Below the pieces are notes generated by a model. The model was not told the DNA's origin. It made no database searches and saw nothing but the letters and a program-made list of their open reading frames with translations. This document shows, piece by piece, positions 1 through 62,735 of a stretch of DNA of 64,000 nucleotides. Made by a program: the position numbers and the translations under genes. Position 1 is the stretch's first letter. Every line of letters begins with the position of its first letter. Source of the DNA: Basidiobolus meristosporus CBS 931.73 (taxonomy: Eukaryota > Basidiobolomycota > Basidiobolomycetes > Basidiobolales > Basidiobolaceae); assembly GCA_002104905.1 (NCBI GenBank), contig MCFE01000038.1:124001-188000 (forward strand), read 5' to 3'.

Positions 1-3000
1 ATTATTCTTAACCCCACGCTGGAGAATCACCACTTGCTCCTTGGCAACCTCGGTGACAACCTGTTGGAGTTCTTGAATCTGCGAGCTAATCCGATCAATC
101 TGTGATGCGAATTCCCTGGGAATGGCGGCGTACACTTCCTTGTTGACTAGTATCTTTTGCTGCTCGAACAGATTCTCCACTCTATCGTCTAGCTTGCGGA
201 GCTCTTCAATGATGCTACCTATGCCCTTGCCATTCTGTTGGGTGTTGCCAATGGATTTACGAAGAAGCTCTTGCTGGCGAACAATCAAAGCGCCAAGCTC
301 CCTTCGAAGGTTGTTCACACCCGCTCCTAACGATTGAATGTGCATATTCTGTGCCTTGATGGCATCCAGAACCCTTTCATCGTTGGCTATCTTATCTTGG
401 CGAACGAGAATTGCGTTTATGGCCTCCCCTAGACCGGTTATTTTGTCATTCAACGCATTTACCTCACCGTGAATGATCTTGTTCTCAGACGTTGACTGGT
501 TCTGGCCACGTTTTTGGTTCTGAATTATGACATTCTGTCGATTGCTAAGAACACGGACTTGTTCATTCATGTTGAACATGAGTTTGCTCAGGGTCTGTAT
601 TTCGTCGACGATCTGTTTGGGGATATGGCTTATTACTTGTGGCCTTGTCAAATCGCCCTGTCGTCTGACGATGTTATTCACCGCACTACTTAGATCGGTA
701 AACCTCTGGATTAAGAGTTCCATTCGCGAATTGTTGCCCGCCTGGTTAGGGCCATTTGCACGCAAGATCTCTGTCTGAACTGTCAGCAGTTTGGTCATCT
801 GAGCGCGGAGTTGTTCTAGTTGTTGGTTCATTTTTTCAATACTTTCCGCTTGCTGCTGTAGTACTTTGACGACATCATCCCGCCGCAAAAGCTCTGACTG
901 CTCAGAAAGAATCTGATTGACTGCGTTCTTGAGAGGACCGAATTCTTGGGCGATGTCGGAGACGTACTTGCTGATGGTGGTAAGGTGACGATCGTCTTTC
1001 CTCTCCAGTTGCAACAGGTTGCTTTGCCCCTGCGATAGCTTGGCAATTAGATTACCCAGAGCTGAAAAGCGGGAATTCAGATTTTCAACTACGGCTAATG
1101 CCTCCCGGGATATCTGTGAGCCAACCTCGGGATTGCCCAGCTGCTTTTGATACCCAATGATCTGGGCGACTATATCACGCAGTGCTCGAAGCTCGCCGTA
1201 TATCGGCCTAAGAACTTTGTTCGTTTCTTCTCCTGAGCCGCCATTAGAGGAATCCAGCTTCGTAAGAATAACCGACTGCTGCTCTACCAGACTGGCGAAG
1301 CGCGAGTTCAGGTCGTTCAGTTTTCGGTCCAAATTGTTGATTTGGCTTGACTGAACTTGCAGTATTTTGACGACTTGGTCGTTATTGAAAATTTTGGCTT
1401 GAGCTGCGAACGTGTCTCTCACAAAGCCCGTGAGGCCATTCAGCTGCTCCGAGAGGGTGTGTATCTCATTGATCAAGCGTTCTGGCACCTTTCTGCTAGA
1501 ATCTCTCGCAATGATTGCCATCTGGCTATTGGAGAACTGGTTCACTGACTGGATCAATTCTCCAAAGCGCGAGTCAAGCTTCCTTAACTCCTCAACAACC
1601 TCTTCAGGAACACGCCCATTCAGTTTAGCATTGAACAGTCTTCCTTGTTGCACAACTAGTTGGTTAATGAAGTTTTGAAGACCAGTAAGCTTCTCAATAA
1701 TGGCGCTATCACGGACCCTATCGCCACTATAACCAACACGTCTAAGCAGCATGGCCTGAATGCGTACGATCTCGTCCACCTTTCTGGCTAGACCCAGTAA
1801 CTCATTGTCAACCTTATCGGTCTTTCTGAGATTCTGCTTCAACAGCTCTGTATGAGTGAGGAGGATCTGTGTTTGTTCTGCATATAGGTTTTTCACATAA
1901 GACCCTAGCTGTCTGATGGAGTCCAGGATATAGCCCGCATTCTTGTTTACCTCCGCAGCGATCGCGCTTCCCTCTTTTTGACGTAAAGCACTTTGCTGTG
2001 CTAAAAGTCGATCCACAGTGTCGCTGAGTTTGGTGATTTTGGCGTTTATCACGGATATAGCAAATGGAACTTTTTGGTTGTATGAATCTTTCCATCTGGT
2101 CTGTAGAATTGCGGTCTGCTGGTTAACCAGTTTAAAGACGATATCACGTAATTCTGCCAACTCATTTGCGGTCTTGTCGAGGGAGGCGGTATTGTGGTTT
2201 TCCTGGCCCATCAAAGCCTGCTGCCCATTTACGAGTTGTTGAACCCGGTTCCCTAAAGTGGTAAGCTTATAGCTTACATTTTTGAAGGTTTGCATTTGCT
2301 GTTCACCAAGTGCACCAATGCGTTTAAGAATCTCGAGCTGCACGACCGAGGTACGGCTTATTCCCTGGTTGAGTTGAATCAGCTCAGCAGTAAGCTTTTC
2401 GAACCGAGAGCCGACTCCATCCGCAAATGCCTTTCCTCCACCAAGTCCAAGGAGGATTCTCTGTTGCTCCGAGAAGATTTGCCCAATAGCGTTGCTAAGC
2501 TTGCTTAGTTCCGCTCGTAATCTCTCCGCTTCTTTGGCTACATCCTCAGAAAAGTCGCCGTGAACATTTCGAGCCAGAGCGTTTTGCTGCTCTAGGATCA
2601 AACGAGCGTTTCTACTGATTTCTTGCAACACTGCAAAGAGACGACCATCGTTAACACCACTTCGTTTGGCGTCGGTGGATTCCTGCTCGTACAATGCTTC
2701 TTGTTGCTTGAGAACCTGATCGATTTTATTGTTCAGCTTCCCAACCTCAAACGAAAGGCTTTGAATTCCCCTGTTTTGTCCGTCGAAGAAACGCACTATT
2801 TCATTGCGGGTGATAAGTTGTGACTGAGATTGAGCCAACTTGCTGACGATATCGAATAGCTGCTCGAATTGCTCATTATAGTTGTGAGCGTCAGTGTTCG
2901 GAGAGGGCTGTCCTTTGTATTGAAGAAGTTGATCTTGCTTCAATAGAAGCACTCGAATGAACTGACCAAGCTGATTCAGGCCTGCTTCTATGTTAGCGAT

Positions 3001-6000
3001 CTCTTGTTTCAACTCGGTTGATAGGCCAGCATTGGATTTGGCAAGAATCAATCTCCTCTGTTCGTCAATCAATTGAGAGACCGCTTTTTCTAATTCAAAC
3101 AGTCGGGCGTTTGTATTGGAGTCACCATTGTGTACCTCATAGTTGACTAGCTTCTGTTGCTGACTAATCAATTTGGTGACATCGGATCCGAGGGCATTCA
3201 GTTTTTGGTTCACAAGTCTAAAATTGTTGTCTTGAGATCTCCAGAGCATGTTTACTGCCTTGAGCAGCCCAGCTTGATATTTGGTTAGGTCGTTCACTGC
3301 CATATTGAGCCTTCCAATTTTGGCATTGATCTGTAGTGCGATTTTCTGTGTATCTTCACTTCGAGAATTGACATTTCGCAACAAAGCGCTTTCCTCCTCA
3401 ACCACGTGCTGAATGGCTTGGTTCAGGAGGAGCAGTCTCCGTGTCATATTCTCAATGTCACCAAGACGTTTGCCTGAGATATTTGACGCCACATAGGCAA
3501 AGAGTTGGTCTTGCCCATCAGTTAGCCTTTGGACTGCCCTGTACAGGCCAGTCAGTGCCCTTATTTGATCGCCGTAATTATGATCTGCGTTACCCCGACC
3601 GGGGTGGCTTTTTTCCCACTCTATCAATCCGTTTATAGAGTTCTGGATTTGGGCTGTCTGCGCACCAAGTCTTTTGATATCTTTGGATTGTGACTCAATC
3701 AAAGAGAAGTACTTCGGTATGTTCAAGAGCACGTTCTGTTGCCTATTGAGGAGCGCCGCAATATCGTTCAGTTGTCCAAATCTCGCCATTATCAAGTCAA
3801 GTCTCTTGTTTGTATCTTGAGCATTAGCAGCGTTCTCTTTGCTAAGATGGCTCAAAATTTCATTCTGTTGGTTGACTAGTCGATCAATAACAAAACTCAG
3901 TTTCGCCACACGTTCGTTCATGTTTGCAACACTTCTCTCCAACCCAGAATCTTGATTCCCGTTGATTTTCAATGATAATAGCTTCTCCTGATCTTGAACC
4001 AATTGATAAACAACAGTGCTGAGCCGCTCCAGCTGTTTATCAGTTTGGAGGTTGCCACGATTATTGCGAACGTATTCGTTGCTGAGAAGATTTCTCTGCT
4101 GCTGGATAAGGGTGCCCATGGCGGTCCTTAGGTTTGCAAGCTGTTGCCCAATCTTGTTTATGTCACCTGAGTAATCCTTCAGCCTTAGAGAGAAATCACC
4201 ACCCAAAATTCGACTTTGTTGCCTTGTAATAAGTGCAAGTACATCATTTAGTCTGTTCAGTTTGCCATGGATCAATTGAACGCTTTGTGCCTCCCCCTGA
4301 TCATTTTTCAGCACTTGTTCTTGCTCGGCACTGATCCTTTCTACTACGTTGTAAATGCGGCTAGACTGCTCTGCCAGCATTTCAATCACTCTTTCGAGGC
4401 CTGCAGGTATTTTCCCGCCAGATCCACGAATTAGCACCCTTTGCTCCTTGATGATTTCCGTAACCGAATAACGTAGCTGGTTGAGCATGGCCTCGAGGTT
4501 ACGGTATTCCTCCGAATCATGGTTAGGGCCGTTTCCGAGAGAGCCGAATCTCTCAGAGATGGCCCGTTGCTGGGTGATCAGGTGATCCATCCTCTGACCT
4601 AAAGAGTTCAACTTGGAATCTAGCACAGCGATTCTGTTATCGTGGCGTGATGGGCTTTCAGGGATTGCTTTTCCACGCAGGAGCTCCTTCTGTTGGTACG
4701 CCAGCAAATTGATTACCTCACCAAGACGTTCTATCTGCATGGATAGTTTCTGGACTTCTTGAGAATTGTACTCCGCGTTAGGCTGGCCTGATTGGGAGCC
4801 AATTTTGCTTGCCAAGATTCGCTGCTCTTGAAGCAGGCGAGTGACAACTGAGCCCAGGTCTGCCAGTTTGTAGTTCACACTTTGGATGTCTCTTCTCACA
4901 CGATCCGAGTTTTTGCCGTTTTCGTATCTACCAAGCAAAACCTGCTGGTCCTGAATAAGTTGATTGACTGTTCTTCGAAGCTGCTCCAGCTTGAGGGTAA
5001 TGTTGTTTCCAAGATTTTTGTCAGCAGCCATATCCACTTTCTGCAACTTGGATTGCTCGTCGAGAAGTTGAATCAGTCTGGTGCCTATCTCCGTAACGTG
5101 ATGGTCCATCTTGGTGATAACGTCTGTTTGCTGCTTAATCCAGTTTTTCTGCGTGGCAAGCATATTTACTACATTCCACAGCCTCTCGAAGTAGCCATTT
5201 AATCTCTTCCAGTGGTCATCCGATAATCCTTCATTCGAGTCTGACAGCTTTATCAACCTTCCCTGTTCGTTTACAAGTCCTCTGATGATCATGCTCAGAT
5301 TGACGATATTTTGGTTTAGATTCCCAATATCGCGGACCAGCTCCTGAGGATAGTTGCCAGCTCTGGGTGGAAGGTAGTAATTGCTTTCCTTGCTAACAAG
5401 CTGCATGATGACCTGCTGTAATTGGCTCAACCGTCTTGCAATATCACCGTACTCCTTACTATCTCGTCCATCAGTGAACCGCTCAAGTAGCTCAGTTTGC
5501 TGGGCAGCCAGCGTTTTCATTCCCTGCTTAACCCCTTCAAGATTTTGGACGACCTTCTCGGAGTCGATGCTGCCTCCGGAGCTTGACCAACCGGTGTTGT
5601 TGATTAGGTTCATTTCCCTCTTGACCAACATATCTAAGGAGTTGCTTGTCTTCCCTAATCTCTGTATCAGCTCTTCAACTGTTCTGATAGATCCGGCATA
5701 GTCAGCGTCTTTATAATCGACTTGTCGGAGCTGTTGAAGCGCAAGCTTTAGGCTTGTAAACAAGCCATCCACTCGTTTGTTAAGGTCTTTCATTTGAGTA
5801 TACTCCCGACTTATGAGTTGCACAGTTTCGGCATGATTCTGCTTTTCCTCCATGGTGCTCTTGTTCAGCCGTTGCTCGATGAAATCCTTGAATTGATCGA
5901 ATTCTTTACGCAGCTGGTAGACCCCTTCATTGTCCTGCAGGGAAGATTTGTCCAAGCGAGAGAGGAAGGAGGATACCTCATTGGAGATTGACGTGATTGA

Positions 6001-7179
6001 CCCCTCCATTCTGCTCAAATTCCCGCGGATCTCTCTCAACTCCTGGCTAGAATTCGAACTGTATGATGGCCTAGTAATATCTTGATTGCTGGAGGAGTAG
6101 CTAGGTAAATTACCAACGGCTCTCAAAAGATCCGTAATTCTTTCATTGATCTCGTTCATGTCTTTGGCGGAACGGACAATGATGCGATTTTGCTGCTGCT
6201 CTATACGGGATTCCTTCGCAGAGACCTGGTTCAAACCCTTTTTGATCTCCGATAATTTTGCGTTGATTGAATCCATCTCGAATAGAGTTTTGGAGGAAGC
6301 CCCTAGCACTCTACTGGTTTGAGATTGGATTTTAGTGTTTTGTTCGGAAACTATCCCGACTGCTCGCGCTAGCTCGGTGATTTTCCTGTTTAATTCATCC
6401 ATCCCTTCTACTACTCCGTCGACATGAGTATTTTGGACGGTGTGGTGCTCTCCTACCCCGCCTTTGGTGGATCTGAGTACTGCTTCAGACAACGCCAAGG
6501 TAAGTTGGTCTAACTTCGCATCTAGTATTTGAAATTCCTTTGATTTCTCTAACTGGGCAGACACGTTGATGTGCGGTCTCTCGACGGCACCCTTCCGAGT
6601 AGTTTGGACATTCGTTGGCAGATCAACTGCCGCTTGTTCGATATACGTATCTCCTCCATCCAAGACAGAGTCAACATATCTCAACTGGCCATCCGGGAAA
6701 AGGGCGACCTGACTACCGGGAGCCACGCTAACAGCACTGGCGAAGTAATTTGATAAAGGATAGTCGCCTATTTCCACAAACGAGGGAAATCCAATTTCCG
6801 ACTCCGCTAATTCGATCCCAAGCTCCTCAATATCATCCCAGGAATCGGCAATGAATTCCAATGGTTGCTCATACACTATGGTGCCAACCAGCTCCTGCTT
6901 CAGACCCAATGGACCGGGATATCCCACGAAGGAGCGATTTCTGAGGGCTGAAGCATGGCTCTTGGTTATCAAAGGGCCTCCAGTCTTCTGGTGAGAAGGC
7001 TTGCTCTTGGGTTGGATTGCCTTGTTTTCGAGGGGGTGATCTTGATCAAGTTCCTTTGATGCACCTGAATCGCCATTTACAGCATGGGCTACGGCCAGCT
7101 GTGAGATTAGGAAAAGATTACGACGAAAATTGGATTTACGAGGAGCATCACTATTGCTGGCTGAGGTTTCGAATAACAT
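1..7179 (-). CDS. Giant secreted coiled-coil repeat protein, partial (C-terminal end beyond the window)
   Basis: The reverse strand appears to be one open frame of 2393 codons from the ATG at 7179 to the window edge; sampled lines along its length showed no in-frame stop. An in-frame TGA lies seven codons upstream, which fixes the start. The N-terminus has a basic stretch, then a hydrophobic segment (about residues 22-33, ending AVAHA), as in a signal peptide. About residues 155-171 hold a block with the core LFPDGQLR. The rest is made of 35-50-residue units of the form LxxLxxxVxxLLxxQxxLL, a heptad pattern with a recurrent Gln in a core position. Longer units start like LITRNEIVRFFDGQN (near 2815-2770) and RRDDVVKVLQQQ (near 885-850). 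Both features are shared with the divergent gene at 8699, so the two are paralogues. Function is unknown. A long extracellular fibre, spore-coat or adhesive protein is inference only. Confidence 0.85.
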   Translation of the reverse strand, partial: MLFETSASNSDAPRKSNFRRNLFLISQLAVAHAVNGDSGASKELDQDHPLENKAIQPKSKPSHQKTGGPLITKSHASALRNRSFVGYPGPLGLKQELVGTIVYEQPLEFIADSWDDIEELGIELAESEIGFPSFVEIGDYPLSNYFASAVSVAPGSQVALFPDGQLRYVDSVLDGGDTYIEQAAVDLPTNVQTTRKGAVERPHINVSAQLEKSKEFQILDAKLDQLTLALSEAVLRSTKGGVGEHHTVQNTHVDGVVEGMDELNRKITELARAVGIVSEQNTKIQSQTSRVLGASSKTLFEMDSINAKLSEIKKGLNQVSAKESRIEQQQNRIIVRSAKDMNEINERITDLLRAVGNLPSYSSSNQDITRPSYSSNSSQELREIRGNLSRMEGSITSISNEVSSFLSRLDKSSLQDNEGVYQLRKEFDQFKDFIEQRLNKSTMEEKQNHAETVQLISREYTQMKDLNKRVDGLFTSLKLALQQLRQVDYKDADYAGSIRTVEELIQRLGKTSNSLDMLVKREMNLINNTGWSSSGGSIDSEKVVQNLEGVKQGMKTLAAQQTELLERFTDGRDSKEYGDIARRLSQLQQVIMQLVSKESNYYLPPRAGNYPQELVRDIGNLNQNIVNLSMIIRGLVNEQGRLIKLSDSNEGLSDDHWKRLNGYFERLWNVVNMLATQKNWIKQQTDVITKMDHHVTEIGTRLIQLLDEQSKLQKVDMAADKNLGNNITLKLEQLRRTVNQLIQDQQVLLGRYENGKNSDRVRRDIQSVNYKLADLGSVVTRLLQEQRILASKIGSQSGQPNAEYNSQEVQKLSMQIERLGEVINLLAYQQKELLRGKAIPESPSRHDNRIAVLDSKLNSLGQRMDHLITQQRAISERFGSLGNGPNHDSEEYRNLEAMLNQLRYSVTEIIKEQRVLIRGSGGKIPAGLERVIEMLAEQSSRIYNVVERISAEQEQVLKNDQGEAQSVQLIHGKLNRLNDVLALITRQQSRILGGDFSLRLKDYSGDINKIGQQLANLRTAMGTLIQQQRNLLSNEYVRNNRGNLQTDKQLERLSTVVYQLVQDQEKLLSLKINGNQDSGLERSVANMNERVAKLSFVIDRLVNQQNEILSHLSKENAANAQDTNKRLDLIMARFGQLNDIAALLNRQQNVLLNIPKYFSLIESQSKDIKRLGAQTAQIQNSINGLIEWEKSHPGRGNADHNYGDQIRALTGLYRAVQRLTDGQDQLFAYVASNISGKRLGDIENMTRRLLLLNQAIQHVVEEESALLRNVNSRSEDTQKIALQINAKIGRLNMAVNDLTKYQAGLLKAVNMLWRSQDNNFRLVNQKLNALGSDVTKLISQQQKLVNYEVHNGDSNTNARLFELEKAVSQLIDEQRRLILAKSNAGLSTELKQEIANIEAGLNQLGQFIRVLLLKQDQLLQYKGQPSPNTDAHNYNEQFEQLFDIVSKLAQSQSQLITRNEIVRFFDGQNRGIQSLSFEVGKLNNKIDQVLKQQEALYEQESTDAKRSGVNDGRLFAVLQEISRNARLILEQQNALARNVHGDFSEDVAKEAERLRAELSKLSNAIGQIFSEQQRILLGLGGGKAFADGVGSRFEKLTAELIQLNQGISRTSVVQLEILKRIGALGEQQMQTFKNVSYKLTTLGNRVQQLVNGQQALMGQENHNTASLDKTANELAELRDIVFKLVNQQTAILQTRWKDSYNQKVPFAISVINAKITKLSDTVDRLLAQQSALRQKEGSAIAAEVNKNAGYILDSIRQLGSYVKNLYAEQTQILLTHTELLKQNLRKTDKVDNELLGLARKVDEIVRIQAMLLRRVGYSGDRVRDSAIIEKLTGLQNFINQLVVQQGRLFNAKLNGRVPEEVVEELRKLDSRFGELIQSVNQFSNSQMAIIARDSSRKVPERLINEIHTLSEQLNGLTGFVRDTFAAQAKIFNNDQVVKILQVQSSQINNLDRKLNDLNSRFASLVEQQSVILTKLDSSNGGSGEETNKVLRPIYGELRALRDIVAQIIGYQKQLGNPEVGSQISREALAVVENLNSRFSALGNLIAKLSQGQSNLLQLERKDDRHLTTISKYVSDIAQEFGPLKNAVNQILSEQSELLRRDDVVKVLQQQAESIEKMNQQLEQLRAQMTKLLTVQTEILRANGPNQAGNNSRMELLIQRFTDLSSAVNNIVRRQGDLTRPQVISHIPKQIVDEIQTLSKLMFNMNEQVRVLSNRQNVIIQNQKRGQNQSTSENKIIHGEVNALNDKITGLGEAINAILVRQDKIANDERVLDAIKAQNMHIQSLGAGVNNLRRELGALIVRQQELLRKSIGNTQQNGKGIGSIIEELRKLDDRVENLFEQQKILVNKEVYAAIPREFASQIDRISSQIQELQQVVTEVAKEQVVILQRGVKNN

Positions 7180-7314
7180 TACTTTGTCACTATCCTTAGC
7201 TCAATAGGAAATTCTAGGAACAGCTGTCGAGTATATTATGCCTGGTTTGGTCGATTAGTTTCTCCAAATGGATGACGAAGAGAAGCGATATTGTATATCG
7301 ATGAGTCAGATATA

Positions 7315-7740
7315 TCAAGTAAAAAGCAGATCCCAAAAATGTGGTGTGTTAGCGGAGAGGAAACCAAGCCTTTCGAGGAACAAAATTTTACGAATTGAAT
7401 GTATGTCAAAATTGATGGCGCCCTTGGAAATGTCGTCTGCAGGGACTTTTATACTGTTAGTGATTTCCGGCAGAATTGCAGCGAATCCATGAAACGGGGT
7501 TACACAATTCACTATGAATGAAACTGTTGAATCGACATTTCTTTGCAGTGTTTTAAGAAGATGCCAATTTTCTCCTATTTGTTCGTGCCGTTTGGCTAGC
7601 GTATCGCTGATTGATACCCCGTTGATCGCACCATCATATGGGCTGGAGGTCGTAACGGAGGGGCTTCGTGCATTTCTCAATTTGAGACTATTAAACAAGC
7701 CCCGGGCAACCCATTGATCGAGTACTTGGGTGCATTTCAT
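7315..7740 (-). CDS. Hypothetical 141-aa ORF between the two giant genes
   Basis: This ATG-to-TGA frame lies on the reverse strand 135 bases upstream of the leftward giant gene. The composition is plausible for a soluble protein: no signal peptide, no membrane segment, mixed helix-forming stretches in the second half. I recognise no domain. It could be a small gene, a relic exon, or a chance frame within the shared promoter region. Nothing but its length supports it. Confidence 0.25.
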   Translation of the reverse strand: MKCTQVLDQWVARGLFNSLKLRNARSPSVTTSSPYDGAINGVSISDTLAKRHEQIGENWHLLKTLQRNVDSTVSFIVNCVTPFHGFAAILPEITNSIKVPADDISKGAINFDIHSIRKILFLERLGFLSANTPHFWDLLFT

Positions 7741-8545
7741 ATCCGCAGACGCGTCATTACAAGGAAAGAACTTTATCTAACCTTCGATATATGAATGTTT
7801 GATGTTGAGCCCAGAGCTGGGATCACCAATGATATGAGGGATCAAGCGGTTCCCCATCGATTGAACGTGGTCCTGTGGAAGGGTGCTCCCGATCGAGGCT
7901 TAAAAAACACATCCAGGTTTAAAAGCTACATGTTGCCAATGGTACCCCATCTGCGATAGTGAGCGCTGTGATTGCTGCATACCCATGCGTTTCTTTAAAC
8001 ATTATGATGGGTTTGAAGAAGTTACGAAACAGCCAGAACGCCCCACTATGTGAGCTAGCACATCCGGCTTGTCTCTTCGGAGCAGCCGCCGTTCTTGCCG
8101 GAGCATGAGGTGATCGGTCTGGATTTCATCCTGAGTGCTCATGAAACTTGGTGGCAGACTAGGCGTTTCCTCACAGAAGCCCCTCACCGGTCCACTGGTA
8201 TGTTTTCCGGTATGTGGTGAAGGCACTTCTTCGTTCGATCGTGCACCAGATATCATGGATCTAGCATACTATGTGAGATTCATGCCATCTTGTGATTCGG
8301 CCAGAGGACTCAACACCAGCCAGCCTCATCAGGGAAAGGCGATCCATATGGAATCAACAATTTGTCAATACTCTCCCCAATTGGTTGACCCAAATCTATG
8401 GTAAAAGGCCTGGTGATGTTGTATTAACAACAAGCATGTTACATGTCGGTGGATTGTTTCCGGAAGAAAATCATGACCGCGTATCTCAAAACCAGAAAAA
8501 GACCGATGCTAATGCAATGAAGACTGTGCATAACCCACCGAACCT
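7741..8545. other. Intergenic space between divergent giant genes
   Basis: Together with the ORF at 7315-7740 this forms the roughly 1.5 kb head-to-head spacer. Short overlapping frames occur on both strands but none looks like a protein. It presumably holds the upstream control sequences for one or both giant genes. Confidence 0.5.
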
Positions 8546-8553
8546 TATAAATA
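8546..8553 (+). promoter_or_regulatory. TATA box of the rightward giant gene
   Basis: A TATAAATA sequence lies about 150 bases before the ATG at 8699. Spacing and sequence fit a fungal core promoter. Confidence 0.5.
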
Positions 8554-8698
8554 TGAAGAGATTCAAAGCGGTGGATACTCCACTTTCCTTACGCAAACGA
8601 ACACAGTGCAAAGTCTCACGTTTGAGTATTTGACATCACAGTTTTGCATTCAATCATCAATTTCATAGACTGTTATAGTATCGAACATTCATCGCACC

Positions 8699-11600
8699 AT
8701 GTTGGCCAATTCCAATAGAACTTATGCTGGGAAGAATCGGCTCATGGCGTTATATCTGTTCAGCCAGCTTGTATGGAGCAGTGCAAGCAACGGAGAGGAT
8801 TTGAGCCCAGTCGTTGATAGCGACACTAGGGAATCTCTTGCTAATCAGAGAAAGCCCATGATTTCTCACGCCACTAGCAATGCCCTTGACAGACATCCAC
8901 AGCATTCCAGATCTTCAGGGCCAGCAAAAAGCTTGGATATTCATACACTAGTGAATGAGCACCCTGCTGAACGCAAATCACCAGGGGCCTCGGGTGAGCA
9001 GATCGTACTCTTTCCTGACAACAAGTTGAGGCTTCTGGGAGGCGCTCAAAACTTGAACGACAAGGAGTTTGGTTTAAACGAGTTAGCCCGTGCTGGTTAT
9101 GGGCCGAAGAAAGATGGTAAGTGGTCGATTGAATAGTGGAGATGAGAACACTCCTAATCCAATGATTTCGATTTAGCTAAGAAGCGATCTGGAACATATG
9201 CTCCAATTCAAAAGAATGTAAAGCAGTCACCGAAAAGCCAGTCACACAAAGAAGAAAGGCTGAATGATAGAATTGACAAGGGAGTCCTTGAACTAGAGCC
9301 GAAGGTACCAGGGCTCTCTCCTCGACAACACTCCCGCGCCAACCATTCGGGGATACCTGGGGAACTCCCCCAAGTAATTCAGGAAGAAGCGGCTGATACC
9401 AAAAAAACTCTAGACCGAATGGGGACCCTTAGAAGCCTTCTCGGAGAATTATCCGCTATTGAGAAAAACACTCGTATCATGAATCAGGAGACACGCCAGT
9501 ATGTTAAGAATACTGCGACAAGGGTGCAGCAAGCCTTTGGCGCTATTGAGAAAGCGCTCAGCCAACAGTCCGAACTTCGTCGACGCCGTCAGGGTGACCC
9601 ATTCGTGGTAGGAACTAATGAAGTTCACGAGATGGATCATAAGATTCAAATGCTTATCGAGGCGATGTCGATTGTATTAAATGAAGTTAAATCCTCATTT
9701 TCTCTTCTTGGCGACTCGACAATGCTTGCTACCTCAACCACTAAGCATATTGACTCGAAGATTGATGATTTATTCACTGTGGTCGGTGCTTTTACCCAAA
9801 AGCAAAGTACCCTGCTTGGGCGTATCACTCAACTCTCGCAATCACAAGAACTGAGCTTTAGAAAAGTCAACCAGCGATTGAACTCTCTTGGGGACGGCAT
9901 CAACCAGCTTATGGCCCGTCAAGGACAACTTTGGAGCAAGTATGGACATGATACTGTGAATAGTTTTGGGTTTACCCAAACCAAACTACAGGAATTGGGG
10001 AAATCAGTCGAAGGGATAGTGAATGAGCAACGGAAGCTTGTGTATTTCTTATCCAAAGGGAATGCTATCAGGTCAACAGGAGTACTGAAAGAGCTTTCGA
10101 AGCTCGACGGGGGAATGAATCAACTGTCGAAATTTGTTCAACGTGTGCTTGAGCATCAAAACAAGTTGTTGTCGTACACATTGAAGGGCAACGACTCGAT
10201 CAAGAAACAAGACAAAAGTCTGCGCATCTTTGGAGAGCAATTAGACAACCTATATAGAATGGTAGATCAGGTGGCAGTAACCCAAAAGCATTTAATCACC
10301 CGCGAAGAAATTATCGATCTGTTCAAGAAGCAAAATGGAGATATTAAAGGCCTGTCCTTAGAACTTGCTGAAATTGGCAATCGAGTCGTTCTACTACTTA
10401 ACCGACAGAAGGATGCGCTGAGGAGTGGCCAAACAAAAAGTAAGGAGTTGAATGAACTAGGCCAGATGCTTTCGCAGGTGGACGGGGGTGTACGCAAGTT
10501 ACTGGTGCAACAGAATATACTGCTGCAAAATGGGCCGAAACTACACAAGGACGTTACGCAAGTCGGAGCATTGCGCGGGCAACTTATGAACCTTAGAAAG
10601 GTTGTCTCCCAAATATCTGAAAGACAGGATCACCTCCTTCAACAACAGCAAGCAGGCACAAAGTATATTCTGGATGATGTTGGCCAGGTGAAAAATAATC
10701 TTTCCAAGCTGAGCCAAGCTGTGGAGAAAATCACACAGCTTCAACTGAACCTCATACAACGTGGTGGTTTAACTCCAGAACAAGCACATGACCTTCAATA
10801 CATCAAGTCCGAGTTGGGAAATCTGGATGGAAAGGTTGCGGTTCTGGTAGAGCAGCAACACGTGCTAGTCAATAAGCTTTCTGCAGGTCCATCAGGTAAC
10901 AAAGGAATCGTCCGAATTGTTCGCACTCTCGATGAACTACGTAAAGCAATATCCCAACTGACGAAGCAGCAAACCTATGTTCTATCCCAAAAACCCGATA
11001 TAGCCGCTAGTCAAAACATTCTAAATGGAGTTTCCCAACTTAACAAGAAACTCTTAAGCCTAGGCAAGGATGTGGATCAATTGTTCGCTTTGCAGAAGAC
11101 TTTGCTTACTCAATCAGCTAAAGACTCGAGTACCATAGTTAAGATAACCGAGAAATTGGATTCGAAAGTTGGACAGCTTGATGCTTATGTAAAGGAGTTG
11201 TTGTTGGAACAGAAGGCCGTTCTACTGGATACTTCGAAGTTGATCAAACAGAATTTGATCCAGAATGATAAGCTCAGTGCAGAAGTGAAGGCTGTGGACA
11301 AAAAGTTGGAAAATCTGGTGCGAATTCAGTTTAACCTACTGAAGCGTATCAATGGCGAGCGTAACCCCAAAGAGACCGTTGCCATTCTTCAGAAGCTAAG
11401 CGAACTCACAAGCCTAACAAACCAGTTGATGGAACAGCAAAAGAAGTTGGCCTACGCTTCTTCTACTGGAAAAGTCTCACAGACGACCCTTCAGCAGTTA
11501 GGCACACTAAACGAGAAATACAACCAGCTAGCAAAAATTATAGACCAAATTTCCTCCAAGCAAAACACTCTGGTTGATGTTTCTAACGATAGCAATGCTA

Positions 11601-14600
11601 CGGGGCACAAACTCGAAGAACAAATTAACGAAGTCAATCATCGTCTGCTAGGCCTTTCAGATTTCATCAAGAAAACATTTAATGAGCAAACGCAAATACT
11701 ACACACACGTGAAATCGCCTCTTTACTTGGGGATCAAAATCAACGTTTAGCTGGTCTTGGTGTTAAACTTGGTGAACTGGGCAACCAATTTGATAAGATG
11801 ATCAACGGGCAAGAGGTCATTGTAAAGAAACTTGGGCAAGTAGCAATAGATGACACGAAGCGGGACCGAGCTATTGCTGTTGAGCTGGGAACCTTACGAG
11901 AAGTTTTAAGAAAGCTAGTTGATTCCCAGAAGCATCTGTTGGGTCCGGAAGTGGTTCATAAAGTTGGGGAGGGCGTGATTAAATCGATCGAAGGCCTAAA
12001 TGATCGCATGATACAGCTTGGCAAGATGATTGGAAGCATTAGGGAGGAACAGAGTGTAATAGTTAGAACACTTGGAGAAGGCACGAGCTACAAGCAGATG
12101 GAAAATCGATTTGACCAATTGCACAAACAATTTTCTCAAATGGCCAAGTGGATAAGGCAAATTGCGAGTGAGCAAGGCAAGCTGTTGCAACGAGACGAAT
12201 TACTCGACATCCTCAAAGTTCAGACGAACGGTATTCATACGATCCAGTCAAACCTTACCAAGTTTAGAAATGATGTCGGCCGTATTGTGGATTTACAGAA
12301 AACTTTGCTTCATGACACTCAGGCTGCCAGCCAAAACGATGCGGCTAGAGATGCCGAGTTGCTTGACAAAATGAACGAGCTCAGGAAATTGACTGAAGGA
12401 TTGATCAACGCTCAACAAGTGATCCTACACTCTGATTTGTATAAGACTATTTCCAAGGACGTGCTCTCACAGGTACATCAGATTAACGCACGTCTGGAGA
12501 AACTAGAGCCTACTACCTTTGACCTACTCAAGCAACAGAAGCAGCTACTGGAACTGAACTCAGTAGAAAAACACAAATCAAGCCAGATCTTGACTGGTGT
12601 TAAAGGAGTATCTACAGGAGTCACACTGCTACTGAACGAGATCAAACAGATTCATGGAGAACAAAAGAGAATAATCAGCCAGAACACAGAAATCAAGTCG
12701 GTATTGGAGAAGCAATTAGGCTATATCAACAGAATCAATGGTCAACTAGCGAAATTCTCCACGCAAACTCTCAACTTCTTGTCCCAACAAGCCAAATTCC
12801 TTGAAAGACTAATCGCCTCCCAGGAGAATGATAAGAGTGGCATCAAGGAAACCTTGGAACGGGTGAAGCAACTCCAAAATGCAGTTACGAGTGTGGTACA
12901 CTGGCAGCATTCTCTCAATATCCCTGAGATCCTAGGCTCCTTACCCAAGACGCTGAGTAATCACATCCGTGATATTTCTGCCAAGATTATTCGCCTAACT
13001 GACAACGTTGCCAGTCTTAGTCAACAACAAAGCATCATTGCCAAAAAGGAGGATGGAGAGTTCGGATCAATTCGCCAAGGCTTAAACGAATTGAATGGAC
13101 GCATGGACAAATTTGGGGATGCCATTGGCAAAATATCAAGCGCACAGAATAAGTTGATACACGACGACGAGATATTGAAATTGCTCAACAATCAGACGCT
13201 TCAAATTCACGGCCTTGGGGTTAACCTAAACTCCATTCGCGCGGAAATCTCCAAATTGATAAGCGATCAGCAACAATTTTTCGTCCAAGGATCAAAGTTC
13301 TTCCAAGGCGATAAGGCTAATCTAGATAGGATGAACGCAACTATAGCGTATGTTCGCAAAGTAATGGATCAGCTCTTCAAGCAGCAACAATTATTTTCCA
13401 ACAGCCAGCTTCTCAACCAGTTCCCTAAACACATAGTCCACGATGTGGAAACCTTGAATGGTGAGATGCATAAATTACAAGAATTTGTGAAGGAACTACG
13501 AAAATTACAAACAGCCACCTTAGAAAACCAAATTAAGAGCACTAAGACCACACAAGTACTGGTGCAAGATGTGGAAGTGTTATCAGGAAGGTTCAACGGA
13601 TTAAGTGACTACGTGAAAAAGATCCTAGAGCTTCAGCAAACAATACTAAGAAACGAAAAAATCGGGCCGATTTTAGAAAAATTCTACGGAAATTTCCAAC
13701 AAATTGAAGGTCGCCTTGCTCAATTAGACAAACTTGTCCGTCATATCTTGGAAAATCAACAGTCACTGATTAATACCGATCAATTCAAGACATTTGCACG
13801 CAGAAATAGCTTGGATGATAAGAAAATGGTTGAAACGCTCAGCAATCTCCACAACACTATCCGAGTCTTGATTGAGCAACAGAAAGACCTTATCAAGCCA
13901 GAGATGTTAAACTCTGTGACTGGGAATCTTCATCATTCCATTCAATCAGTTGGGGAAGAAATCGCCGGATTAAGCGAGAAGATTAATCAAATTCAAGCTG
14001 AGCAAAGTCAGGTCATAAAAGAACAGCACAATCTAAACCTCAACTTCAATGAAGCCGTCAAGGGATTGAACAAGCAGCTGATTGACCTGAACCAACGTGC
14101 TTCTCGACTGTTTGTGCAGCAAAAAGATATATTACAAAATGAGCAAGTTCTAACGGTCATGGCAGAGAAATTAAATGACTTGGCACCGATCAAGAGCAAC
14201 CTCGCTATGGTGAATGAGAAGCTTAACTCTTTACTGAGCCAGCAGAAGGATATTGCTTTGATAGCCCAAAGATCCGGTGGTGAAGGGCCCAAAGATAACA
14301 AGCAAATCCTGGATCGCTTCACTTCATTTAGTCAAATGGTGCGGCATATGATTACCAAGCAAACTACCCTATTGTCAGAGCAAATCATCGAAAAGGCGCC
14401 CAAGAGGTTACTCGGGCAAATCGTAGCATTAAACAGGCAATTCGATCTTCTCAACCTTGGACTTGGGAAGCTATTTGAGGTTCAAAAAAAGATATTAAAC
14501 CCCGGTTACAGTGATGTTTCGAGCAATCGAATCTTGAGCGGATTGGATCTTCTTTCGCAGCATTACTCGACAATATCAAAAACCGCCAAAAATATCGAAA

Positions 14601-16942
14601 AGACACAGAACAATCTGATGAGTCGTGAAGAATTACTAGCCATTCTCCAAAAACAATCTGGTGCCATTCAAAATGTTCACACGAAGGTTGGGCAACTTGA
14701 CGAGAAAGTTGGGGTCTTAATAGGCCAACAACGAGCTCTTTTGGAGTCTATTTCCCAGAAATTTAAGCCGACAAGTGATTCTCATGAGACGTTTGGTGCG
14801 GTCCTGACCCATCTAGAAGGGTTAGAGAAGGGGATTAAATACATCTCCCAAGAACAGCGTAAACTCTCTCAGCTGAATACAGACCAAAGAAACAAAATGG
14901 ACGATAAAATCCTAAACTCAACCCATTCCTTGGATCAAAGAGTGGCACGATTGGCACAGGTTGTTGGTCGCCTATTTGAGAATCAAAGAGCCCTTATTAT
15001 TGCCGAAAAAGACACCAAAACGCCCAAGGGAATATTTGCCGCGGTAGAGAAGTTAAATGCCAATTTGGTACATTTGGATGGTGCAGTTCAATTTCTGGTC
15101 AAGGATGTTCAAAAAGTAGATGCCAGAATTTCTGCCTTATTGCAGCTACCACAAGATATGGAGAATGTTAAAAGCAGGCTAGCACACCTTACTGGTGCAA
15201 CCAAGAGACTAGTTGATCAGCATACTCAGCTGTTTGGCTTCACCAAAGAAGGTATTGACACACTGACGAAGCAGCAAAGGGTTATGGCAAGCAATGTGAA
15301 CAGTAGACTATCGGAAATTACGAAGCTTGTTGATCAGCTTATTCAACAACAAAAACAGATTATGTCGGCAGAACCAAAGAACTCTCCCAAGCATTCGAAG
15401 GCGGTCGCCACTTTGATATCCAAGATATTTAAAATAGAACAAGTGATCGAGTTTCTACTGAACGAGCAGAGAAAGATGTACCAGGCGGATCGCAACGAAC
15501 AAAAGGAGCAATTCAATAATCTAGATCGAAAACTGAATTTATTTGGAGAAGCGTTGAAACAGTTTGTTAATCAACAGCATTCTGTAATGAAAATACTTGG
15601 TGTAGTGGAACGACAAACTGCTGTTGTCAACGATATGAGCAATAAGCTCGGAAATCTCAATAGCATTGTCAGCACACTTGTATCACAACAACAGCAACTC
15701 CTTGTCTATACGAAAGAACATGCTCAGACAGAGAATCCACAGATCGATGGACGCTTAACAGAGCTGAGAGAGACTGTTTCGAAAATTCTTCAACAGCACA
15801 AGATTCTACTTGAACGCGGGTTACAAGAGCTGAGCTCAGGAAGAGATAGGAAACATCGTGAGATCACCGCTCAATTCGACAATCGTTTAAGCCAAGTGGC
15901 TTCTTTGGTTCAGCAACTTGTCCATGAACAAGAAACCGTCTTATCGCAGACCAAGCACCAAAACCAAGATAACCCAAGGATTGTATCGGCCGTCTCTCGT
16001 ATCTCAGGACATATTAATGAGCTTGCTAAGCTGATGACAAGCTTAAATAATGAACAATCCACATTAATTGAGCGTGGCTTTACACACCTTTCCCAGCAGA
16101 ATAATCAGGAATTTAGGCACGTGGATGAAAGGTTGGACCAGATTGGCTCCGCCCTTAAACGACTTGCTGGAGATGAGACTAGCTCGCTTATCAATCGATT
16201 CGAAAATGCCTCACGACAGCAATCACAAGAGAACAAAGCAATGAAATCCCAACTCTACCAAATTACTAGGGTTCTAGAAAGAATCGTCTCCAAGACAGAT
16301 CTGATTTCCCCGGATAATACAGGAGATATTACGGATGTAAGACGCCGTCTAGACTATCTCAATCAAGTTCTGACCAGACTCACGGAAATTCACAACGACC
16401 GAAAACACCTGGCATTAACCGAAGATCAATACCAGAAGGTGAGCTACTTGATGAATATGATCCCTGCCTTAAATGAATCTATCAAACGATTTGACTTGTC
16501 TGGATCCATCCATTCGCCGGAAAGCTTGAAACAACTATCAATAATCAGGGAATCTATTGAGGAGTGTAATAGAGCTATCATTGGTCTTCAAAAGGTTTTG
16601 AATTTGAGTGGTCCTGCAGTAGCATCATTTGTATCGCCTGAAATCAGTACACCCGATGCTGCCGTAAGAGCAGCCAATTCTAGAAGCGATGATCCACAAC
16701 CACCAGTACTAATAAGTCGAGTCGAACTCGCGAACCCTGGACTGGCACCTTACAGGATATTGTCTAACAATGACGACTCTAACGGAGATAAGAGCACCAC
16801 AAATAATGTCTCTGACGGAGAAGTTGTTGAGGAAGACCCTGCCAAGAGTCTTTATGACAATCACTATTTCAACAATGGATACTGGTACCCTAGAAATGAA
16901 GTCTTCAACGAGGTAATTGGCGGTGGTGAACGTTTACTCTAA
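8699..16942 (+). CDS. Giant secreted coiled-coil repeat protein (2727 aa)
   Basis: There are two exons, 8699-9116 and 9177-16942. The intron is GTAAGT...TTTAG, 60 bases, phase 1, and the long frame continues in register across it. Residues about 1-30 give a signal peptide: basic Asn/Arg/Lys start, hydrophobic LMALYLFSQLVW, then SSAS. Residues about 99-115 carry a block with core LFPDNKLR shared with the divergent gene. From about residue 220 to 2600 come some 50 units of 35-50 residues with heptad Leu/Val spacing and a conserved Gln before the last Leu pair. Five longer units begin REE or DDE followed by LLxxQ. Their aligned Gln codons (10331, 11735, 12221, 13193, 14654) are 468, 162, 324 and 487 residues apart, a super-repeat near 162. 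I noticed a single Cys, close to the C-terminus. The tail is acidic and Asn-rich, with no membrane anchor. No described family was recognised. Structural surface fibre is inference. Confidence 0.88.
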
Positions 16943-17374: not shown

Positions 17375-18538
17375 TTAACGAGAACATTGAACATCGTACT
17401 TGACCGGGTACGTTATCATCTCCTGGGCTGGATAGGGTGGGGGATTGTTGTTATTAGTCACCACTGCGTACTCGTAGCATGGCGGATAGTACGAGGGCAA
17501 GTCTTGGAAAAACTCGTCATGTGCAGCTGGGAGGATGCATATGGGCAAGTCGAAAATGAGAAAGTCTGTGATGCTAGTTCTCTCAATCTCAACTTTAACC
17601 TGAAGAGTATGGCGAATGCGAATCAGCTCCGAATGATAGTCTATGTGTACAGACTTCGAATTTGTGGGAATCTGAACATTAATTGTGGTGTCCAGTCTGG
17701 TAGTAGGGGTGAACTTCTCGGAGCAAAGGCGCAGCCAATTGTGGTCCACATTAAATTTGTTGATTTCCGGGATTCGGTTTGTAACGGACTCCTTAAGGAA
17801 ACATACCACCCTTTTGATATGGGCTTGCTCCATCAGCGAAGTTACCTTGATGTTCAGAGGAATCGATTCACCAAAGCCAAAGCACTTCATAGGAACATGT
17901 ACGTCATAGCGGACTTTGTCCTCCCACACATCAGATAAATCAGTGGATTCGTTGATTTCATTACTAGTAGTATATCTCTTGACGACAACCTCCTTCTCAC
18001 AAGTGAGGTTTCTTTGAAGAAAACTCCTCTCCGCAAATGCTTGAAGACAGTACTCGACTTTGCCGCTGTCGATATGAATTGTCTCAGGTAGAGATCCAGG
18101 GAAGGCATATTCAAATATGTAAGCGTATTCACCGGCCGGGAAGAGATGGCCCTCCTTCTTTGGCTCAAGTAGAACCCACTCATGGTCGATCAGCTTTCTT
18201 TTGGCATAGTTGGCAAAAGCCTTGGTCCCATATGCTAAGAACAATCGCGGTTATTATCTATGCATAGTAAGATCCATTTACAAAAACTTACATTCTGTCC
18301 ATGTGGTTTTCGCTCTTCCCTTAAGACACAGTGTCAGGGATCGTAATTTGGTAGGCTCCTTCAAACGCAGTACGACTTTGCCTCTTAGCAAGGCACCAGC
18401 AGATTCGGAAGGAGAACCATTGAAAATCAGTGTATCAGACTCTAATTGAATATCTAGTATGGTAGTTGCATGCATCGTGGGAGAGTGGAGTGTGTTTTCG
18501 CTGTGCGGAAGCAATCTGTATTTATATCCGCTCGACAT
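17375..18538 (-). CDS. Alpha-arrestin (ART-type ubiquitin ligase adaptor)
   Basis: Two exons, 18538-18292 and 18234-17375, are joined by a 57-base intron (GTAAGT...CTTAG, phase 1) and give 368 aa. Exon 1 holds the arrestin N-domain signature: GKVVLRLKEPTKLRSLTL and KGRAKTTW. Exon 2 continues with the H-x-FP-G-EY-Y-FEYAFPG-LP-ET pattern of fungal arrestin_N and then the arrestin_C domain (IPLNIKVTSL). The C-terminal tail carries two PPxY motifs, PPCY and PPPY, the binding sites for WW domains of Rsp5/Nedd4 ligases. Family knowledge: such proteins recruit the ligase to plasma-membrane transporters for ubiquitination and endocytosis. The ATG at 18538 is the first in frame. A later Met at about residue 22 is an alternative. 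Confidence 0.9.
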
Positions 18539-35517: not shown

Positions 35518-36825
<1,308 letters not shown>

Positions 36826-56246: not shown

Positions 56247-58346
56247 CTAAATGGGGGTTTCCCGGTCAAGTACCTTTTGAAAGAAATCGGTAGTAAATGT
56301 AGCATCTGATGGCATATCAGGGCCGCATGCCTGCAGGTTCCACCATTTCAAGTCCCTGTCCTTCTTACGGCCCGAAGGCTTGTGCGTGCTGTTGGATTTT
56401 ACAAGCCATGACTCAGCCTTCAACTGCAGGTACGCGATTGCTTCGACGGGAGGTAAAATTCGAGTAGGGATTCTATCAGCATGCAGGCGTTTTCGCTTTT
56501 GCTTAGGAACGTATACATCCTGATGATCCTGATATAGTGAGGTGGACATGGCAAGAGCATACTGAAGATCTTCATCCGACTCTGGTTTGATTCGGCGGGG
56601 CTTGTGAAGAACAACATTCGGTAAGGGTTGAATCACGACATCCTCCGTAAAGTCTTCATCCGCTTCTAGAAAAGCTACCTGGAATTCGCGAAGTTTTTGC
56701 GCCCTAGATGCTTCTGATACCTGTTCAATGGCTGGAGTAGGACTTTGATTGACCCAGTTCTGCTCCACACCAAGTTGATTCATTTGAATGATTAGCTGAC
56801 TGTAGGTCAACTTTCGCAATTTGGCGCAGCATTTCAAATGAAGCATTCGAGCGTCTAATGTTGTCCATTTGAGAAGCCACGGATTTTGACAGCTTGGACA
56901 ATTCGGGATGCTCATGAGACAATGGATTCCTGTGTTGTACACTTCACTCGTTTTTACTGAGGTGGCATCCGTATTTGTTTCGGTGGATTTTGGCTTGGCA
57001 GGAATAATGTGATGCTTGCTATCTAAGCAGGCATTGATATGTAAGCTTTTGCGATCCTCATTCATAAAGGAAATATTCTCCTGACATATTAAACATCTCT
57101 CTACAGCGTTTGTATCCAACAATACGGTCGAGTCGATGTCGGCCATCTTGGGTTGGACGAGTGCGTGCTGTGTGGATATATCAAGACAGTTATTTACATG
57201 ATCTTCTTTGGCTTGGATGCTTTGAAAGGCAACTAAAGGGCATTGGCAGATAGGGCAGATCTCAATTGCTTGCTCTTGAATACTATGATCATTGGTAGGG
57301 CATGACGGGGCAAGAGCTTTTGCTGACTGAGCTTCTAGAGCAATTGTCGCGGGAATATCATCCATTGCATCTTGGGAAGCGATGTCCTCAGTAGCTCGAA
57401 TGTCATATAATCTCTTGGAGTTTTGGCTGCACAGTTGAGGAGAGCAATGACTGTTCATCGATTCCGAGTCTATTAATGAGCTTGTATCTTCATGAAGTTC
57501 GAGCGTTGTGAGGCTCGCTGTCACTTTTCCTTCTTGGGATGTATCCTTTAACACTTCTAGATCTTGGTTGGTTTGATCGGTCCCTTTCTCGTCGCAACAC
57601 CTTGCAGGCTCACCTAACTCTAAATGGAGCGGTGGTGATGTTTCTTGGCTATTCCGATCCTCCCTCAGAATTTTGATACTTGATGGCGTTACTTCCAATC
57701 GACATTTTGCTTCTTCACCGATGAAAGGCTCTTCCAAAGGAAACGCTTGAGTTGGTGGAATATCCTCCTTTTCTTCAGCTAAGAGTCGAGAAGCCAAAAT
57801 GAATTGGTGCTTTGCAGGGGTTTCGTTTTGACTTAAAAATTGCTCCCATTTAGAACCTCGCTCAATTTTTTCCCGGTCATCTTTGATGGTTTCTATTTCC
57901 TCGGAGATGGGTGGAGTATTTTGGGGTTTCTGTGTCGTTTGGCTTAGCTTGATCTTATTTGTCGACCTGAGTGCCAATCTTCGGGGTTTGAAGGTTGAAA
58001 TTGCCGCAGAGCCAAAGTACTTGGACACTAGTGAAGAGTTTAAACCAGAGTCAGTCTTCGACTCTACAACAGGATCACTGATTATTGGCCTTGCAGTCTG
58101 TTTCGTGCTCGAGGAGGCTGAACACCTATCGGCAGAACCAATTATAGAAAACAAAGAACTTTTTCCCCCAGACTTTCCGTTGGAATTCACTTTGATTGTC
58201 CTTCTTCGACTAGTTCCTAAATACTTTTTGTTTGAGGTGCCCCGTTCAGTCGTTCCATTTGTATTTGGAGAAGCCTTTATGGTACTCTTCTCCTTTGAGG
58301 CAGTCTTTATATTAAGATCACGGAAATCGTCGTCGTCGTCATCCAT
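56247..58346 (-). CDS. UBZ-finger and UIM-like protein, SLX4-like
   Basis: A single exon of 699 aa from ATG 58346; the frame opens slightly further up but without an ATG. An acidic start (MDDDDDDF) is followed by a basic, Ser-rich disordered region. Three zinc fingers of CxxC...HxxxC type lie at about 364-387 (CPICQCPL...HVNNC), 418-440 (CLICQENI...HINAC) and 483-506 (CPSCQNPW...HLKCC), as in Rad18/SLX4-type UBZ4 ubiquitin binders. A UIM-like helix follows at about 590-607 (SDEDLQYALAMSTSL). Near the end is KWWNLQACGPDM, which recalls the segment after the UBZ fingers of SLX4. The BTB, SAP and SLX1-binding parts of SLX4 are absent: the frame stops at 56247. A ubiquitin-directed DNA-repair scaffold is likely. 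Orthology to SLX4 is unproven. Confidence 0.7.
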   Translation of the reverse strand: MDDDDDDFRDLNIKTASKEKSTIKASPNTNGTTERGTSNKKYLGTSRRRTIKVNSNGKSGGKSSLFSIIGSADRCSASSSTKQTARPIISDPVVESKTDSGLNSSLVSKYFGSAAISTFKPRRLALRSTNKIKLSQTTQKPQNTPPISEEIETIKDDREKIERGSKWEQFLSQNETPAKHQFILASRLLAEEKEDIPPTQAFPLEEPFIGEEAKCRLEVTPSSIKILREDRNSQETSPPLHLELGEPARCCDEKGTDQTNQDLEVLKDTSQEGKVTASLTTLELHEDTSSLIDSESMNSHCSPQLCSQNSKRLYDIRATEDIASQDAMDDIPATIALEAQSAKALAPSCPTNDHSIQEQAIEICPICQCPLVAFQSIQAKEDHVNNCLDISTQHALVQPKMADIDSTVLLDTNAVERCLICQENISFMNEDRKSLHINACLDSKHHIIPAKPKSTETNTDATSVKTSEVYNTGIHCLMSIPNCPSCQNPWLLKWTTLDARMLHLKCCAKLRKLTYSQLIIQMNQLGVEQNWVNQSPTPAIEQVSEASRAQKLREFQVAFLEADEDFTEDVVIQPLPNVVLHKPRRIKPESDEDLQYALAMSTSLYQDHQDVYVPKQKRKRLHADRIPTRILPPVEAIAYLQLKAESWLVKSNSTHKPSGRKKDRDLKWWNLQACGPDMPSDATFTTDFFQKVLDRETPI

Positions 58347-58674
58347 AACAAGACATTTCCGGAACACCAGGTATATTGAATAAGCCGTAGTAGGCTGACT
58401 GCAAAAGAGTGTGAAGGGGGAATATCATGTGACTTGATTCGGAACCTGGACTTGATTGGATGCCCATTATTTTGAAAATACTGATTGATTCTCTGGGACT
58501 CAATCTCTAGCAATATTTATTGAGGAGCCACTACGCTCTAGCCGCTCCCTTGGTGCGCGAGGAGAACATCCGATGCAATTATTATTTATTCATAGTCATT
58601 TGGCCCAAGATTAGGAAAACGATACACCAATTAATCCAACACTAGGTGATTCCAGAGCACCAAGAGAATTCACA
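58347..58674. other. Intergenic stretch
   Basis: A 330-base space between the UBZ gene start and the CHAP gene stop. It holds the UBZ gene promoter. Confidence 0.6.
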
Positions 58675-62645: not shown

Positions 62646-62735
62646 TCCCCAGGTCGATGAATCACTACTGTATATTCCGATCTCCCTTGATCATCCCGCT
62701 CGTTAAGAAACTTTCAGGAAAAGTTGTCCCTTAAA

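Follow-up and report, generated by a model that had tools for sequence, protein, structure and literature searches.

We have examined a 64,000-nucleotide stretch of the genome of the fungus Basidiobolus meristosporus CBS 931.73 (the window; positions 124001-188000 of contig MCFE01000038.1, here C624, in an assembly of 89.0 Mb and 1,311 contigs), a quarter of which is taken up by two giant genes, A and B, that diverge from a common spacer. An earlier interpretation made without database searches (the sequence-only reading) had described divergent open frames of at least 2393 and 2727 codons flanking a 1.5 kb spacer, with products that are almost free of cysteine, and the frames and spacer read from the DNA agree with this (Table 1). 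Gene A has 3,583 codons, 2,393 of them in the window and 1,190 beyond its edge, and its locus corresponds to database protein P0005. The product of gene B agrees in length with the public model K493DRAFT_334011 (P0001) and is 100% identical to it over a 2,507-residue query. The two belong to a family of seven members that includes a second pair in the same genome, A2 and B2 (P0003), together with the A-type protein P0006 and the B-type proteins P0002 and P0004 of Basidiobolus ranarum. These are 2,264-3,730 residues long and can be aligned at 25-66% pairwise identity. A has no cysteine and B has one, and all seven have between zero and three.

The greater part of each protein is a rod of tandem units. 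A simple unit model, fitted to six of the proteins (A, P0006, B, B2, P0002, and P0004) and then scored on the same six, recognises 392 units (70, 71, 56, 75, 75, and 45 respectively), with scores of 1,273-2,048 and shuffled-sequence means of at most 3 (A, 1,809 versus 1 +/- 3; B, 1,451 versus 1 +/- 1; 20 shuffles each). The unit is about 41 residues long and has hydrophobic positions at 6, 9, 13, 16, 20, 23, 30, and 31, with leucine, isoleucine, or valine at heptad positions a and d, a glutamine at position 27 in about 84% of the 392 units, and a variable stretch at positions of about 34 to 41. The a/d heptad core spans four heptads per unit; the spacing from unit to unit is a multiple of seven in just 37 of 353 steps, and 80 steps leave a remainder of four. 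Similarity between units is maximal at lags of 4, 8, and 12 in all six proteins (means of 19.3-33.1 versus 6.7-17.3 at other lags), which indicates four unit types that together make up one block of about 162 residues. The order of the types is kept in 352 of 353 adjacent steps, although this figure is not independent evidence because the assignment rule itself favours that order. The estimate of about 50 units in each protein made in the sequence-only reading is close to the 48 recognised in the window part of A and the 56 in B, and its 162-residue period is real, but as a block of four, the smallest unit being about 41 residues.

AlphaFold models of one segment of A and one of B, each covering two blocks and of low confidence, suggest that every unit forms one helix and that the helix is broken between units. 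They do not discriminate a chain of four-helix bundles from a coiled-coil fibre; in each model one block of the two is bundle-like, and the first ~125 residues match long-helix proteins such as TBK1 and BAR domains. The structure-match Z scores of these models are at the usual level for helical models without a clear match, and a Foldseek search with the B model gave a best E value of 0.065 and nothing at 0.001 or below.

The length of the rod is nearly constant among the long members, of which there are four. Measured between the outermost recognised units, it is 3,084 residues in A, 3,114 in P0006, 3,234 in B2, and 3,244 in P0002, which corresponds to 19.0, 19.2, 20.0, and 20.0 times 162 residues; these are length ratios and not direct counts, as stretches without recognised units occur, mostly in the N-terminal third. 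The sole rod insertion or deletion of 30 or more residues between A and B types, present in four of four A/B comparisons, is 164 residues long, or about one block, and lies at residues 2109-2272 of B2, with the exact placement depending on the aligner. The largest within the A types is 17 residues and that between B2 and P0002 is 23. The extra B block did not arise by recent copying of a neighbour, as at most 37 of its 164 positions are identical among the six best other stretches of B2. Such near-constant length is not expected of repeats that are free to vary in number.

In all seven members an uncharged hydrophobic segment begins after 14-21 residues and is preceded by a net charge of +2 to +4, its best 12-mer is within the top 0.12% of all 12-mers of the same protein, and the residues S-Q-L are common to all. 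The segment is thus a plausible signal peptide of moderate strength, and the basic-then-hydrophobic order in both A and B fits the signal-peptide-like starts noted earlier. The public model of A splices out 51 nucleotides here, which is probably wrong, the stretch being probably coding, because the peptide is retained in the five other public models (P0001-P0004 and P0006). These 51 nucleotides overlap the codons of a conserved LISQL peptide, and the CTAAT and AG signals within them are either a coding coincidence or else reflect a splice form without export. Downstream of the segment, the motif QxxLFPDxxLR is invariant in the six aligned members and also present in A2, and it fits the short N-terminal block that A and B had been said to share.

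At the C-terminus, A, P0006, B, and P0002 carry G[YF]WYPxNxxF and B2 carries DYWYPxNxxF, while A2 ends in GYWYLKAI. The tails are basic in A (net +13) and P0006 (+12; isoelectric points of about 10) and acidic in B (-8), B2 (-11), and P0002 (-14; isoelectric points of 4.4-4.5), and the fast-evolving copy A2 is without the basic tail (net -10). The conserved B-type cysteine makes a B-B disulphide possible; A and P0006 have a tyrosine at the matching place.

Table 1. Features of genes A and B in the window (pLDDT, predicted local distance difference test; pTM, predicted template modelling score)
Feature	Position in window	Strand	Remarks
Gene A	7179..1, continuing to C624:120428	minus	ATG at 7179; one uninterrupted frame
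GT-AG stretch of 51 nt, spliced out as an intron in the public A model	7089..7139	minus	its removal takes out most of the signal-like segment
A hydrophobic uncharged N-terminal segment, residues 21-36	7072..7119	minus	signal-peptide-like; aligned in 7/7 members
A motif QVALFPDGQLR	6679..6711	minus	
A repeat rod, window part, residue 255 onward	1..6417	minus	last rod residue 3338, beyond the window edge
A residues 1985-2314, two four-unit blocks, AlphaFold	238..1227	minus	mean pLDDT 67.4, pTM 0.47
A-B spacer, ATG to ATG	7180..8698		1,519 bp
Gene B	8699..16942	plus	ATG at 8699; 2,727 amino acids
Gene B exon 1	8699..9116	plus	carries signal-like segment and LFPD motif
B hydrophobic N-terminal segment, residues 15-32	8741..8794	plus	
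B motif QIVLFPDNKLR	8999..9031	plus	
Gene B intron	9117..9176	plus	60 bp, GTAAGT...TTTAG
Gene B exon 2	9177..16942	plus	
B repeat rod, residues 244-2559	9488..16435	plus	56 recognised units of ~41 residues
B residues 1031-1356, two four-unit blocks, AlphaFold	11849..12826	plus	mean pLDDT 73.9, pTM 0.50
Single B cysteine, residue 2603	16565..16567	plus	kept in 3/3 B-type proteins that reach the C-terminal rod end
B acidic C-terminal tail	16583..16939	plus	net -8, isoelectric point 4.4
GYWYPxN motif of B	16877..16897	plus	common C-terminal motif

With the window part of A as query, the head-to-head pair is found at no fewer than two loci in this genome, on C624 and on contig C389, and B2 residues 1-250 as query returned the same genes, at least four, and nothing else at E values up to 1. 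On C389, B2 (3,645 amino acids) starts at 57,023 on the minus strand and A2 (2,794 amino acids) at 58,078 on the plus strand, and the 1,054 bp spacer between them has no significant DNA similarity to the A-B spacer (best E value 0.15). Identity is 41% between A and A2 and 49% between B and B2. The flanking genes on both sides are collinear, in inverted orientation, between the two contigs; nine stretches of flanking open reading frames with at least 140 aligned residues match at E values of 1e-20 or better, eight of them at 57.7-95.8% identity and the ninth, which is antisense to another, at 37.3%. The collinear flanks and the presence of the pair at both loci indicate that a whole segment was duplicated with the head-to-head pair already inside it. 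The segment spans C624:107653-157514 and C389:32293-85997, with flanks up to 96% identical, and the collinearity suggests large-scale duplication in Basidiobolus; on the basis of elongation-factor copy number, duplication of genes or of the genome had already been suggested for B. ranarum (PMC3281927). A and B themselves are 27% identical and collinear along their length (compared with the B types, A and its orthologue show 27-32% and A2 shows 25-26%), so that the proposed origin of the two as paralogues is upheld over the full length and an inverted duplication fits, although this event preceded the whole-segment duplication.

Maximum-likelihood trees on columns filled in all sequences (1,062 columns for seven sequences, 2,234 for six) group P0006 with A2 and not with A (support 94 and 100), and, in the seven-sequence tree alone, B with P0004 (support 94); the placement of P0002 is unsettled, with support of 63 and 65 and a different partner in each tree. 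This grouping would date the segment duplication before the split of the two Basidiobolus species. The fastest to evolve since then are A2 (branches of 0.79-0.87, versus 0.38-0.41 for A) and B (0.54-0.62, versus 0.24-0.30 for B2), and the B. ranarum copies have the shortest branches, 0.11-0.20. Each locus thus holds one long, slower gene and one shortened, faster gene, and the long A (C624) and the long B2 (C389) are at different loci. Most of the shortening affects the N-terminal third of the rod: relative to A, A2 is without stretches of 373 and 215 residues and a further 16 downstream, and B is without stretches of 457, 58, 120, 115, 34, and 17 relative to B2. The survival of a long A and a long B at separate loci is as expected if selection requires both a functional A and a functional B, acting in trans.

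Each protein search scored about 8,000 candidates, and all matches were to Basidiobolus. B as query matched itself, P0002, P0004, and P0003, A matched its own locus and P0006 (56% identity over 3,498 aligned residues), and a profile search found no further relative among these candidates. Judged by locus tag, P0002 (K7432_000010) and P0006 (K7432_000011) place B and A types next to each other in B. ranarum as well. However, the searches demonstrably miss known relatives, the A query being without the B-type proteins and the profile search without P0003, P0001, and P0004, with A2 never matched and perhaps absent from the database, and restriction of the family to Basidiobolus is therefore not established. 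We also note that P0004 (2,264 residues, on a 12.8-kb contig) diverges from the family in its last residues, and it is probably cut by the contig end or the product of a faulty model. Neither A and B in their window parts nor P0001, P0003, and P0006, the last of which alone covers the C-terminal third of A, gave a Pfam family above cut-off; the best match below cut-off was Baculo_PEP_C in P0006 (E value 0.007, 16.9 bits versus a cut-off of 38). This accords with the claim in the sequence-only reading that no known family has this layout, and a match to a motor, kinetochore, or golgin protein, named there beforehand as refuting, was not among the Pfam results above cut-off. The window part of A has no match by sequence in the PDB, and titles and abstract openings of the open-licence literature yielded no account of proteins of the A or B type. 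A prokaryotic or viral origin was rejected, as two short peptide patterns in each of the viral and prokaryote genome collections gave 49 and 64 matches, none confirmed as a relative.

We favour, at a probability of about 0.45, a model in which A and B together form, as its two subunits, an exported, obligate A:B, giant cysteine-poor helical structural protein or material of Basidiobolus. The hydrophobic N-terminal segment would route both chains to the secretory pathway, and the intact chain would be a rod some 19 block lengths long in A and 20 in B, with four units per block and each unit mainly one helix with a heptad core, a near-constant glutamine at a core position, and a short break before the next helix. 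The basic tails of A and the acidic tails of B would probably join or order the chains, and the product may be a long-lived extracellular or cell-surface material, for example of the wall or spore coat, or an adhesive. The paralogy, repeat architecture, near-constant rod length, two head-to-head loci, reciprocal shortening, and opposite tail charges are seen directly in the sequences; the helices and breaks, from low-confidence models, and the export, pairing, structural role, and location we infer, with joint action of A and B made more likely by the second locus, the reciprocal shortening, and the oppositely charged tails. Several observations weigh on the other side. The reciprocal pattern is a single case in one genome and so is suggestive and not proof; the rate of A is itself roughly double that of its relative in B. 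ranarum (0.38-0.41 versus 0.18-0.20), and B. ranarum has an extra B-type copy, P0004. Charge complementarity is confined to the tails, the N-terminal regions being acidic in both A and B2. The best N-terminal 12-mers are moderately hydrophobic (1.48-1.97), and in four of the seven proteins some rod segment exceeds them. N-glycosylation sequons are below the expectation from composition in all seven and are conserved no better than pooled control motifs. Finally, codon usage is ordinary, giving no sign of very high expression: the codon adaptation index is 0.41-0.45 for the giant genes, 0.39-0.45 for six other window genes, 0.48-0.53 for seven kinesin stretches, and 0.78 for an actin exon that is part of the reference set. 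RNA-seq of strain CBS 931.73 is available (PMC7466969).

The moderate strength and late start of the hydrophobic segment would also suit giant intracellular scaffolds, in which the segment does not work as a signal peptide, or serves mitochondrial or other targeting, and A and B organise the septum, the spindle pole, or a similar structure. Long leucine- and glutamine-rich helical proteins are usually intracellular. We nonetheless consider this unlikely given that Pfam detects no motor, kinetochore, golgin, or other domain above cut-off, that the basic-then-hydrophobic start is conserved in seven of seven members, and that up to 3,730 residues contain so few cysteines, which is unusual for a cytosolic protein of this size (a general expectation, with no proteome-wide control). 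A different question concerns the fold alone and is compatible with the A:B material that we favour, namely whether the product is an extended coiled-coil fibre, either A:B or homo-oligomeric, in which units pair between chains, glutamine layers set the register, A and B run parallel, and the length would be ~0.46-0.48 micrometre if fully helical. The classical a/d core over four heptads per unit and the collinear rods with large insertions and deletions nearly absent point in this direction, as does the bundle-like appearance of only one block in each model, with its long-helix matches; moreover, in single-chain AlphaFold models, coiled-coil segments taken in isolation tend to be folded back on themselves. 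We regard the fibre, which the sequence-only reading had also put forward, as somewhat unlikely; the models of the two segments, at low confidence, break the helix between units.

Surface-directed repeat proteins are common in fungi, and A and B might be ordinary tandem-repeat adhesins that evolve by repeat expansion and act singly at the cell surface. This seems very improbable to us, since the rods of four members, from two species and two paralogues, are almost equal in length, neither A nor B has a hydrophobic C-terminal end, and serine plus threonine make up just 11.9% of A and 12.7% of B. That the long frames are decaying or meaningless might be argued from the shortened, fast-evolving A2 and B, but seven proteins of this size remain alignable and four members are read from DNA without an internal stop, and for the four long members the notion is effectively excluded. 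A more elaborate version of the A:B material is a vernier, in which 19- and 20-block rods lie side by side with oppositely charged tails and the one-block mismatch determines how long a giant extracellular fibre is or how it is staggered. The constant block numbers would be the ruler, and after duplication one copy of each gene could lose part of its rod only as long as the genome still has an intact A and an intact B at some locus. We think of this as a long shot.

Large helical-repeat structural proteins are already known as a kind; the paired genes, the two-level repeat of 41 and 162 residues, and the near-constant lengths of 19 and 20 blocks appear new to us. Spectrin and talin are bundle-chain proteins, and IncA, with its four-helix bundle, is an inclusion-membrane protein of Chlamydia with no evident functional link to A and B, which have no Pfam match above cut-off to these families. 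A six-member profile had a sole PDB match, to the antiparallel coiled coil sc-apCC-6 (9r1o; E value 0.0025), which has similar heptad spacing; judged by its name it is a synthetic design, and the likeness is one of pattern and not of descent. Under the two-subunit model, the nearest working analogue is honeybee silk, likewise several coiled-coil chains in one material. The aculeate fibroins F1-F4 are described as different chains that form one helical coiled-coil material, made in the silk gland and spun out, each with an alanine-rich core of ~210 residues and unstructured flanking ends, in an antiparallel heterotetramer (PMC12284834). Compared with that description, the A and B rods are 3,084-3,244 residues long with 5.4% (A) and 5.0% (B) alanine, and they have a leucine/isoleucine/valine core, a conserved glutamine, four-unit blocks, and a fungal host; by core composition and length A and B are not members of the bee silk family.

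The Kex2-processed repeat proteins (KEPs) of fungi combine an export signal with tandem repeats, and B. meristosporus CBS 931.73 is reported as the most populated strain, with 43 KEPs, over half of them duplicated or of the same types (PMC7329392). A and B resemble them in the tandem repeats, and would do so in the export signal if the signal-like segment works as one, but their repeats are not separated by KR or RR. A Kex2-processed reading was rejected, as KR/RR counts are at or below expectation in seven of seven proteins (A, 25 versus 33.3); in six proteins 9-21 sites lie within 45-75 units, so that most units have none, and the sites occur all along the unit, somewhat more often at positions 25-34 in the two A types. 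A glycosylphosphatidylinositol-anchored adhesin was also rejected, as there is no hydrophobic C-terminal signal (A ends in FEKISQGY and B in GGGERLL) and the three strongest 19-residue hydrophobic stretches of A and of B are away from the C-terminal end.

If the two-subunit model is right, A and B would represent a helical building material that a fungus makes naturally from two components, with chains of great length, a strict repeat on two levels, and block numbers that hardly vary. They could be used to study how very long repeat proteins maintain their length and how obligate partners survive a segment duplication, and they would offer a source of cysteine-free helical modules for materials work and a candidate for the spore and wall chemistry of an early-diverging gut fungus.

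Elsewhere in the window, neither ARAGORN nor Rfam at gathering scores finds RNA genes. An arrestin-like gene (17375-18244, minus strand) lies just downstream of B, and a counterpart 73% identical to it adjoins the pair on C389. A long actin exon is present at 36007-36825 on the plus strand (PF00022, E value 4.4e-107), and a 706-amino-acid open reading frame at 56247-58367 on the minus strand, without a Pfam match at an E value of 0.001, has cysteine/histidine pairs that resemble small zinc fingers. The open reading frame at 62724-63707 on the plus strand has a signal-peptide-like start, a low-complexity linker rich in glycine, serine, aspartate, and histidine, and a C-terminal CHAP domain; as CHAP is typical of peptidoglycan hydrolases, this frame is a candidate for bacterial origin.

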